A stretch of DNA of 64,000 bases from Leptolyngbya sp. FACHB-8. Its GTDB lineage: Bacteria; Cyanobacteriota; Cyanobacteriia; Elainellales; Elainellaceae. The stretch is from contig NZ_JACJOO010000015.1 of assembly GCF_014695575.1 (NCBI RefSeq), forward strand, positions 62,001 through 126,000, in the 5' to 3' direction. The position numbers and the translations under genes were made by a program. Shown here piece by piece: positions 2,373 through 50,417 of this stretch (its first letter is position 1; every line of letters starts with the position of its first letter). The notes below the pieces were generated by a model. It was not told the DNA's origin, made no database searches, and saw only the letters and a program-made list of their open reading frames with translations.

Positions 2373-2508
2373 TTGAATAACCTCAGTTCGGGTTAAGGAC
2401 GTTTTCGAGTGCCGCGCGTTGCGCGGCACTCGAAAACGCTCATTTTGGCGTGCGCAAAGCGCACGCCAAAATGAGCACTTCAGCTTATCCCGAACTGAGG
2501 TTGAATAA
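2373..2508. repeat. Palindromic element family A, copy A1, with 8-bp direct repeats
   Basis: The element (2381-2500, 120 bp) starts CCTCAGTTCGGG and ends CCCGAACTGAGG. Inside are two hairpins in series: one built on TTTTCGAGTGCCGCGCG (about 2401-2437) and one on CATTTTGGCGTGCGC (about 2439-2475). TTGAATAA flanks it on both sides (2373-2380 and 2501-2508), as expected for a target-site duplication. It contains no ORF of its own. Related copies are at 11516, 17921, 50264 and 56601. Confidence 0.85.
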
Positions 2509-10695: not shown

Positions 10696-10943
10696 TCCGG
10701 GATGATGGATGCTCTGTATACCTTTGGGCTTTAGCCTTGATTAGGATTTGTAGGCTGAGGAGCTAACGCAGCTCACCCAGAGTTGCCTCAATGTTCATTT
10801 TGCTTCAAGTCATCGAAGTGCACTGAACTATAGAAAATTCAGCCGCTCGAGGAACTGTCATATAAATTCTGTGGTATCGATTTTGGCTCGTTAGGATTCA
10901 ACTATTAAGGAGTGTCCCAGTATACGGACGGAGTGGTGAGGTC

Positions 10944-11369
10944 ATGAAATGGAAGCAGCTTCTATCGAAGAAATGGGTTAGTGTTCCGGCATCTTTAGCC
11001 ATGATGTTAACCTTGGCGGGTGCCGTTTATGCTCAGGTGCAGACTCCCATCAACTCTACAGTGGTCGTGCGGGGCAACTCAGGTGGCTCCCAATCAAGTT
11101 CCTGTGGTTTCATTCCCGGTGCTCCCGTACAGACCGTACGTGTGTCCGAACAATTTGCTGCCTTACGTTTTGAGGTGCAGAGCCAAAATACCAGTACTCT
11201 GCTGATTACTGGTCCTGGTGGTCGTAGCCAATGTGCCCGAGCTAGTGATTTTTCCGGTGGCGCCATTGAAGTGACAGGTGTGTGGGAGCAGGGTACCTAC
11301 TCCTTGTTCGTTGGTGAGCGTAATCAGGGTGTTCGTAATCCGTTTACCCTCTCCGTCTTGCCTGAATAG
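10944..11369 (+). CDS. Small exported protein of unknown function
   Basis: A 141-aa protein with a clear Sec signal peptide (KK-rich start, hydrophobic core VPASLAMMLTLAGAVYA, cleavage likely after AYA-like VYA-Q at about residue 30). The mature part has two cysteines about 40 residues apart that could form a disulfide (SSCGFIPG and RSQCARAS), and a beta-rich look with many V, T, G and S residues, ending in FTLSVLPE. The start has GTGAGG upstream. No family was recognised. A terminator follows 36 bp after the stop. Confidence 0.75.
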   Translation: MKWKQLLSKKWVSVPASLAMMLTLAGAVYAQVQTPINSTVVVRGNSGGSQSSSCGFIPGAPVQTVRVSEQFAALRFEVQSQNTSTLLITGPGGRSQCARASDFSGGAIEVTGVWEQGTYSLFVGERNQGVRNPFTLSVLPE

Positions 11370-11405
11370 TGTTGACTGGCTTATAGTCGTGGCCTTTTTG
11401 TTGGG

Positions 11406-11447
11406 CCATAAGAAGGGCTGGTGCGAACACCAGCCCTTCTTCTATGG
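11406..11447 (+). terminator. Hairpin after the exported-protein gene
   Basis: AGAAGGGCTGGTG and CACCAGCCCTTCT pair around a CGAA tetraloop, extended by CCATA/TATGG. Very stable stem; only a short pyrimidine run follows. Confidence 0.75.
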
Positions 11448-11466
11448 TTATAGATTGCTGCGATCG

Positions 11467-11668
11467 CCCGATGGGTTAGGACATCAGAAGTTATTGAAAG
11501 CAATGCCTTCAATAACCTCAGTTCGGGTTAAGGGCTTTTTCGAGTGCCGCGCGCTTCGCGCGGCACTCGAAAAAAACATTATTGCGTGCGCGTCGCGCAC
11601 GCAATAATGGGCGGTTCGGCTTCTCCCGAACTGACGTTCAATAACTTCTAAAGTCCTAACCTATCGGG
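11467..11668. repeat. Large palindrome interrupted by a family A element
   Basis: Outer arms of 32 bp (11467-11498, CCCGATGGGTTAGGACATC..., and 11637-11668) match at 29 positions. Without the insertion they would form a 73-bp hairpin with a 9-nt loop. The interruption is family A copy A2 plus one copy of its 8-bp direct repeat. Confidence 0.85.
11508..11644. repeat. Palindromic element family A, copy A2, with 8-bp direct repeats
   Basis: The element spans 11516-11636 (121 bp), from CCTCAGTTCGGG to CCCGAACTGACG. Perfect TTCAATAA copies flank it (11508-11515, 11637-11644). The first hairpin is the GAGTGCCGCGCG type. The second is CATTATTGCGTGCGC rather than CATTTTGGCGTGCGC, changed on both arms so that pairing is kept. 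Confidence 0.9.
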
Positions 11669-11674
11669 CTAAGG

Positions 11675-11777
11675 CTATACAGCGCTTTGCGCTTGAATTA
11701 GTCACGGTTGTTTTTGTGGGAGCCGCGCTCCCACAAAAACAACCGGATTTTAAGCGTTTGAAAAGCGCCGTAAATAG
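11675..11777. repeat. Palindromic element family C, copy C1
   Basis: Inverted ends of the type CTATACAGCGCTTTGC surround a perfect hairpin with 19-bp arms starting CGGTTGTTTTTGTGG (11705-11745). Ends and ACGGT core resemble the element at 44129-44226. Confidence 0.65.
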
Positions 11778-11779
11778 CG

Positions 11780-11824
11780 AACTCTTATTTTTATCGTTGC
11801 TTGACTACGACAAAAATAAGAGTT
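11780..11824. terminator. Hairpin
   Basis: AACTCTTATTTTT and AAAAATAAGAGTT pair perfectly, followed inward by TCGT/ACGA around a 9-nt loop. Confidence 0.55.
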
Positions 11825-11866
11825 CTGAGCTGATGCTTTAGACAAGCGCAAGATGTGAACACACGT

Positions 11867-11910
11867 ATAAAAGGAGAGAATGGGGCTTGGTTTTCATGCC
11901 CTCCTTTTAT
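11867..11910. terminator. Hairpin between repeat cluster and response-regulator gene
   Basis: ATAAAAGGAG and CTCCTTTTAT form the stem, with GGGC/GCCC further in. It lies about 180 bp past the 3' end of the minus-strand regulator gene and could end either transcript. Confidence 0.5.
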
Positions 11911-12093
11911 TTAAGCTTTATGGCTACAGCGATCGCGGCTATGATTAGCAACCGCACCACACCTAGGTTTCAATATAAGCAGGTTAACCGCTATGGCTTG
12001 AAATCTTAGGTTCCATCCTGATGAGGCAGCTGCTGTCAGTCTAATGGGTTGTGAAAATGCCAGGGGAAATAACGGGGCTATGATGTCTTTACC

Positions 12094-12813
12094 TTAGCGA
12101 ACAGCCTCAACGGCTCCAGCTTCATCGGGGGCTTCAAATTTGTAGCCGACGCCGCGCACCGTCTGGATCAAGGCTGGCTGGCTTGTGTCAATCTCAATCT
12201 TTTTACGGATCTGGCCGATGTGAACATCTACAACACGCTGGTCTCCTACGTATTCATAATCCCAAACTTTCTGAATCAATTCGGCCCGCCGCCATACTCT
12301 TCCGGGGTGGCTCGCCAGGAAGTAAAGCAGATCAAACTCCAGTGCCGTCAAGACAACGGGGTCTTCCTTCAACATCACCTCGCGACGTACCGGATCTATG
12401 GATAGATCGTTAAACCGCAAACATTGCTGTTCTGCGGCCGTAACGGGACGTTGTCGCTTCAGGATAGCTTGAACGCGCACTTCCAATTCCCCTAAACTGA
12501 AGGGCTTGGTGAGATAGTCGTCAGCTCCCTGGGAGAACCCCCGGATTTTGTCGGCCTCATCAGCCCGACTTGTGAGCATAAGAACAAATACCCCAGTGCG
12601 GTTTTGCATCTCCTGACACAGGTTGTATCCTGTGGCATCAGGTAGATTGACGTCCAAAATGACCAGATCGGGGTTGAACTGGTCAAAGCTTGCCATGGCA
12701 GCCTTCCCATCCTCTGCTGACTCTACCTGATATTCATGGCGGGTGAGGAAGCGGTGGATCAGAGTACGGATGGCGGGGTCGTCATCAACTACGAGGATTT
12801 TGGCTGTAGCCAT
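12094..12813 (-). CDS. OmpR/PhoB-type response regulator
   Basis: A 239-aa two-component regulator. Residues 5-120 are a receiver domain with the acidic pocket DDD (10-12), the phosphoacceptor Asp in VILDVNLPDATG (about 54), Thr in MLTSRADE and Lys in YLTKPFSLGE. Residues about 135-230 are a winged-helix DNA-binding domain (LTALEFDLLYFLASHPGRVWRRAELI, then VVDVHIGQIRKKIE and TVRGVGYKFE). The sequence resembles the cyanobacterial NrrA/Rre37 group by my recollection, but this is not certain and no symbol is given. No kinase gene is adjacent. Start supported by GAGG upstream. Confidence 0.92.
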   Translation of the reverse strand: MATAKILVVDDDPAIRTLIHRFLTRHEYQVESAEDGKAAMASFDQFNPDLVILDVNLPDATGYNLCQEMQNRTGVFVLMLTSRADEADKIRGFSQGADDYLTKPFSLGELEVRVQAILKRQRPVTAAEQQCLRFNDLSIDPVRREVMLKEDPVVLTALEFDLLYFLASHPGRVWRRAELIQKVWDYEYVGDQRVVDVHIGQIRKKIEIDTSQPALIQTVRGVGYKFEAPDEAGAVEAVR

Positions 12814-50258: not shown

Positions 50259-50263
50259 AATAA

Positions 50264-50383
50264 CCTCAGTTCAGGATAAGCTGAAGTGCTCATTTTGGCG
50301 TGCGCTTTGCGCACGCCAAAATGAGCGTTTTCGAGTGCTGCGCAACGCGCGGCACTCGAAAACGCCCTTAACCCGAACTCAGG
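50264..50383 (-). repeat. Palindromic element family A, copy A3 (inverted)
   Basis: 120 bp from CCTCAGTTCAGG to CCCGAACTCAGG, in the reverse internal order: the CATTTTGGCGTGCGC hairpin comes first, the TTTTCGAGTGC hairpin second. Flanks TGAAATAA and TTATCAAA do not match, so no duplication is seen. It lies between the convergent M24 peptidase and ndhB genes. Confidence 0.85.
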
Positions 50384-50417
50384 TTATCAAAAGTGCTGAA
50401 CAAGCCTCATAACGAAA

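Follow-up and report, generated by a model that had tools for sequence, protein, structure and literature searches.

The locus examined here raises the question of how one palindromic repeat came to lie inside another, and which of the two was there first. The window, that is, the whole stretch of 64,000 nucleotides that was analysed (G000:C7:62001-126000), is part of a 6.93-Mb draft genome in 95 contigs. Its genes, and the named genomes in which the repeat ends recur, suggest that the source is a cyanobacterium. The window contains a copy of a host palindrome, which we refer to as H, interrupted by a short element of a second, unrelated repeat family, family A. The features of the structure are as follows.

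11454..11465, + strand: left outer flank of H, family consensus close to TATTGCTATCGCC
11466..11501, + strand: left arm of H in the 36-pair reading of the restored stem, from the arm match and the intact copies
11502..11504, no strand: loop AAT of H, from comparison with the intact copies
11505..11514, + strand: inner right arm of H, left of the insertion, including the left target copy
11509..11514, no strand: target duplication TCAATA, left copy
11515..11637, + strand: family A copy A2, a 123-bp MITE with ends ACCTCAGTTCGGGTTAAG / CTTCTCCCGAACTGACGT and two internal hairpins
11638..11643, no strand: target duplication TCAATA, right copy
11638..11669, + strand: outer right arm of H, right of the insertion, including the right target copy
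11670..11679, + strand: right outer flank of H, family consensus close to CCAAGGCTATA

The inverted arms of the host palindrome (11466-11498 and 11637-11669) are now separated by 138 nt. The sequence-only reading had described 32-bp arms with 29 matches and a restored hairpin of 73 nt with a 9-nt loop, all of which agree with the sequence; one more pair on each side extends the arms to 33 nt with 30 of 33 positions matching (91% complementary) and the hairpin to 75 nt. The latter was obtained when 11508-11636, a length equal to the element plus one target copy, was deleted, and it folds at -50.1 kcal/mol with RNA parameters. Comparison with intact copies allows an alternative reading of the stem, with 36 pairs, 4 of them mismatched, and the 3-nt loop AAT. 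The target had been correctly located inside the host arm, but its extent was given as TTCAATAA, while it is the 6-bp TCAATA if the element starts with AC. The element boundaries 11515-11637 and the 6-bp duplication hold under this same assumption, which is what IS982 elements do. Since the outer T and A of TTCAATAA are common to the host and the element end, the restored sequence is unchanged by this correction.

We can practically dismiss the idea that the arms match by chance and that there is no host palindrome. In 300 shuffles of longer flanks, which kept base composition but not dinucleotides, the best 33-base inverted match was 26 and the mean 19.8, and none reached the 30 of the real arms. 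Related intact hairpins are also present elsewhere in the source genome, and this idea is already refuted. When the joined site was used as a query, relatives at 73-80% identity were found there; nine of these were read, of which eight form long hairpins whose loop is 3 nt and one is a half copy. A covariance model built from the eight intact copies placed the H family at 41 distinct places of the source genome, window copy included (74 rows on both strands, from the best 150 of 1119 candidates scored), the weakest matches being less certain members. A stem of at least 20 pairs is kept in 34 of the 37 places read out of these 41; since the model favours intact stems, broken copies are under-counted. 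The sequence-only reading had looked to other copies of the host palindrome as a check, and intact ones are thus present in the source genome; a case in which the palindrome is found in interrupted form alone was not encountered.

In the congener G001, H was not found by the covariance model among the best 150 of 911 candidates scored, and H matches were present in 10 of the 36 genomes of the source's family. Five matches from other genomes were read, and they contain the core GTTAGGAC in three cases, GATTAGGAC in one and TTTAGGAC in one; TATAGC-like ends occur in four of the five, and their inner stems are unlike H. Regarding a connection of H with IS630, the outer flanks are close to TATTGCTATCGCC / GGCCAAGGCTATA, and no shared end was found in the three stretches inspected. 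Four IS630 matches are present in the source genome, one of them over the cut-off and three at contig ends.

We then considered the inserted element. Two further copies of family A lie in the window.

2380..2501, + strand: family A copy A1, some 83% similar to A2, flanked by the target duplication TGAATA
50263..50384, - strand: family A copy A3, some 81% similar to A2, for which no clean duplication was found

Elsewhere in the genome, 39 other places show 90-95% identity to A2 among the best 40 of 518 candidates scored. A 17-base pattern of the family A end, allowing up to 3 mismatches, gave 596 matches (292+304) against 31 (17+14) for the reversed control, and a 22-base pattern of the right end gave 207 against 0. 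From the matches listed, end pairs in fetched stretches provided a sample of 115 family A places, including a few pairings that count one right end with two left ends (C11, C38, C48). The length was 122 bp in 94 of these 115. When 102 copies were aligned, 49 formed the A2 subfamily, with a mean identity of 97.4% to their own consensus (94.4% for A2 itself), and the other 53 were mixed, with a mean of 82% to a consensus that differs by 14%. Three family A elements stand in tandem at one locus (L009, G000:C51:1674-2110), two of them diverged.

Target duplications of 6-8 bp were found at 88 of the 115 places (6 bp at 60, 7 bp at 24 and 8 bp at 4), and no duplication of at least 6 bp was found at the remaining 27, which were left out of the tests of hairpin preference, target consensus and H profile. 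All 60 of the 6-bp targets start with T and end with A, and among the 24 of 7 bp a T comes first in 23 and an A last in 22, so that the target is typically T-N4/5-A with a consensus near TANNTA. Family A is therefore shorter than 300 bp, contains no transposase gene, and has terminal inverted repeats, many copies and, at the 88 places, target duplications, as a MITE does. The window copy had been put forward as the best direct evidence that family A moves; this place now belongs to the duplications at 88 of the 115 copies and to four other H copies that were hit.

The order of events proposed from the sequence, host palindrome first and family A later, is supported, since the duplication lies in the host arm, intact H copies occur elsewhere and A is found at many unrelated sites. 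It is very improbable that the nested layout arose as an assembly artefact: the draft of 95 contigs is repeat-rich and some contigs end near A copies, but the junctions lie well inside a 213-kb contig and show a correct duplication, as in 87 other copies.

The A2-in-H case is not unique. Besides the window copy, a 122-bp family A element flanked by a clean duplication is present at 4 of the 37 H places that were read.

L043 and L223: family A in H at TAGTTA, an outer-stem site
L226: family A in H at TAACTA, the same outer-stem site as in L043 and L223
L158: family A at TATGGCTA, the left end of H

At 28 of the 37 places there is no A end within 160 bp, and at 5 an A-like end lies within 160 bp and H is not interrupted by a recognised full copy. 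One further candidate, L247, which had been picked by a pattern combining the H end and the A end, was rejected; it holds A at TAACTA, with no H hairpin around it. When the restored A sites were compared with an H profile, 5 of 88 matched at E<=0.01 against 0 of 115,590 control bases, although the match is weak for two of them (1e-6 and 9e-4) and H was discovered from the window copy itself. These results are suggestive of H as a hot spot for A, which we attribute to TAACTA/TAGTTA in its outer stem, a fit to the A target. A second host palindrome (CCCACTTTTGTAAGTGAAGCGGGC) was observed at L121 and L162, each copy being hit by A at the same TACAAA in opposite orientation.

Here, we need to consider that the interrupted structure might be one composite element that spreads as a unit, with the smaller palindromes derived from it. 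The shared palindrome and target of L121 and L162 would be in line with this, but their A copies are oppositely oriented, the A2 subfamily includes that of L121 only, and the two loci have different outer flanks, so that they look like separate insertions. The 28 H places without a nearby A end also argue against it, as do the 83 of 88 restored A sites that have no H match at E<=0.01. The intact H copies and the A copies at unrelated sites largely refute a composite origin, and we regard it as highly unlikely compared with insertion of A2 into an H copy.

It might also be that A recognises a hairpin or cruciform as its target, and not a sequence. Thirteen of the 88 A sites lie inside restored hairpins, and intergenic sites fall inside or at the edge of a hairpin in 18 of 81 cases against 356 of 3111 controls (p=0.007), or 30 of 81 against 636 of 3111 when sites within 15 bp are added (p=0.0007). 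However, the difference is not clear for sites strictly inside (10/81 against 252/3111, p=0.21), and with TANN(N)TA-matched controls the values were 4/37 against 14/287 inside (p=0.14), 6/37 against 19/287 with the edge (p=0.051) and 11/37 against 43/287 with the neighbourhood (p=0.033). Among intergenic bases the background is 11.0%, and the 13 of 88 sites are little above it (p=0.30); when intergenic sites alone are counted, 12 of 81 lie in hairpins against 8.2% of T-A matched bases (p=0.04). Moreover, the A targets follow a sequence consensus. There is thus no clear effect strictly inside hairpins and a moderate, about twofold excess at their edges and nearby, and we consider recognition of the hairpin itself unlikely.

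To which transposase does the insertion of A2 into H point? The terminal 13-21 bases of family A match those of IS982-family insertion sequences of about 1 kb in other genomes, and the end sequence was found in genome contigs of cyanobacteria and of MAGs from several other groups (at least 22 matches). Elements of about 1 kb with A-like ends and one long ORF are present in Amazonocrinis (L066), a Flammeovirgaceae MAG (L077) and a Deinococcales MAG (L062), and these ORFs scored 246.6, 274.6 and 251 bits, respectively, against the IS982 model, whose cut-off is 130 bits. One end of the IS982 copy of G022 (L102), AACGTCAGTTCGGGATAAG, is identical over 19 bases to the right end of the A consensus, and the IS982 of the congener G001 (L101) has A-like ends and the duplication TAGCTA. 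According to PMC7335449, IS982 elements are about 1 kb long, have AC ends and make duplications of variable length, 6 bp in the case of ISNsp1 of Nostoc; family A shares the AC ends and the variable-length duplications. When the A consensus was compared with seven loci that include L103 and L105 and carry IS982 transposase matches, the ends alone matched, over at most 21 bases, with nothing internal, and L105 gave no match. Since its ends match IS982 ends, we classify family A as an IS982-type MITE.

A transposase match of IS982 type was found in 18 of the 36 genomes of the source's family, some of them weak, and that of the congener G001 is free of stop codons. In the source draft genome, no match to the IS982 protein was found (7 candidates scored), and the sole match to the IS982 model is far below the cut-off (23.7 against 130 bits). 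Relatives of family A gave matches in 8 of the 36 genomes, mostly over part of the element, and among these eight only G026 and G005 contain many full-length relatives, at about 75% identity. No IS982 transposase match was seen in G005, and several, with stop codons, were seen in G026. Judging from the ends, an IS982 transposase probably did the moving; it would now be absent from the source genome, because it was lost, was never there, or escaped the draft assembly.

Based on these observations, we suggest that A2 was very probably moved in trans by an IS982 transposase into a pre-existing H copy, splitting its hairpin. The H copy would already have been in place as a member of a dispersed palindrome family. 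An IS982-family transposase would have acted in trans on the AC...GT terminal repeats of a family A copy, which would then have entered TCAATA in the right arm of H, so that the insertion would have duplicated 6 bp and split the H hairpin. The nested site gives the relative age of two palindromic repeats of a single genome and links a repeat without a name to a named transposase family. It also draws attention to a large MITE population in a genome where the likely transposase was not found.

The A2-in-H structure is instructive, but it exemplifies a kind of event that is already known, here the insertion of an IS982-type MITE into a member of another palindromic repeat family. PMC9769881 describes an IS982-derived MITE in Cardinium, MITECca01, and family A is likewise short, gene-less and present in many copies with IS982-like inverted repeats. 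In contrast, MITECca01 is about 240 bp long and has intact parent copies in the same genome, while family A is 122 bp long, has strong internal hairpins and has no parent found in its genome. It differs from IS982 insertion sequences such as ISNsp1, as presented in PMC7335449, in having no transposase and about one-eighth of the length. ISPpu9 and ISPsy8 (PMC1525189) are also mobile elements inside a dispersed extragenic palindrome, but they are described as REP-specific, whereas the target of family A is a short TANNTA-like sequence and most of the copies sampled lie outside palindromes. In literature searched by titles and the openings of abstracts, no IS982-type MITE of cyanobacteria was found, that of Cardinium being the nearest.

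The H copies differ from each other and yet have matching arms, and they could serve to test by what means a palindrome is maintained. When the eight copies were aligned, pairing was seen in 93.9% of 277 cells, and 16 of the 36 pairs are changed on both sides; by cells, 27 have two-sided changes, 4 have one-sided changes and 17 are unpaired, and none of 500 shuffles reached these values. Since the H structure was derived from the same sequences, these statistics show coupled arms, not function. Replication template switching is a process known elsewhere, and the scarcity of one-sided changes would fit such a copying of one arm onto the other in DNA, although it seems doubtful to us that this is what keeps the H arms self-complementary. 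Arm-to-arm copying has been proposed for RNA stems (PMC8794818). If it were true here, nested insertions like A2 would part the arms and stop the correction, serving as natural experiments. In two H copies (L084 and L087), each arm lacks four bases at positions that correspond between the arms, as if the two had changed together. We also considered decay of the interrupted hairpin, because 4 of the 36 pairs are mismatched in the window copy, compared with 0-2 mismatches in eight strong intact copies (for L085, the count covers 23 pairs only). On this number of cases decay is unsupported, since the host arms of L121 are perfect (32/32) though its A copy is as diverged (0.943).

The intergenic stretch around H is a pile of palindromes, and nothing was found at the Rfam gathering score across 10900-12150. 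The search for an empty orthologous site ended at a break in synteny: the neighbouring response-regulator gene is matched at 88% in the sole congener compared, with no similarity on its 3' side there, and no relative of the upstream 141-aa protein was found in the genome contigs searched. A terminator-like hairpin follows this 141-aa ORF at 11410-11441. Directly to the right of H, another palindromic repeat, TACAGCGCTTTGCGCTTGAATTAG...CGCCGTAA, occupies 11678-11773; elsewhere it measures about 106 bp, and a similar copy was seen at 20 further places within the loci examined, 8 of which were chosen by matching it. A further palindrome, AACTCTTATTTTT...AAAAATAAGAGTT, lies beside H at 11785-11828.
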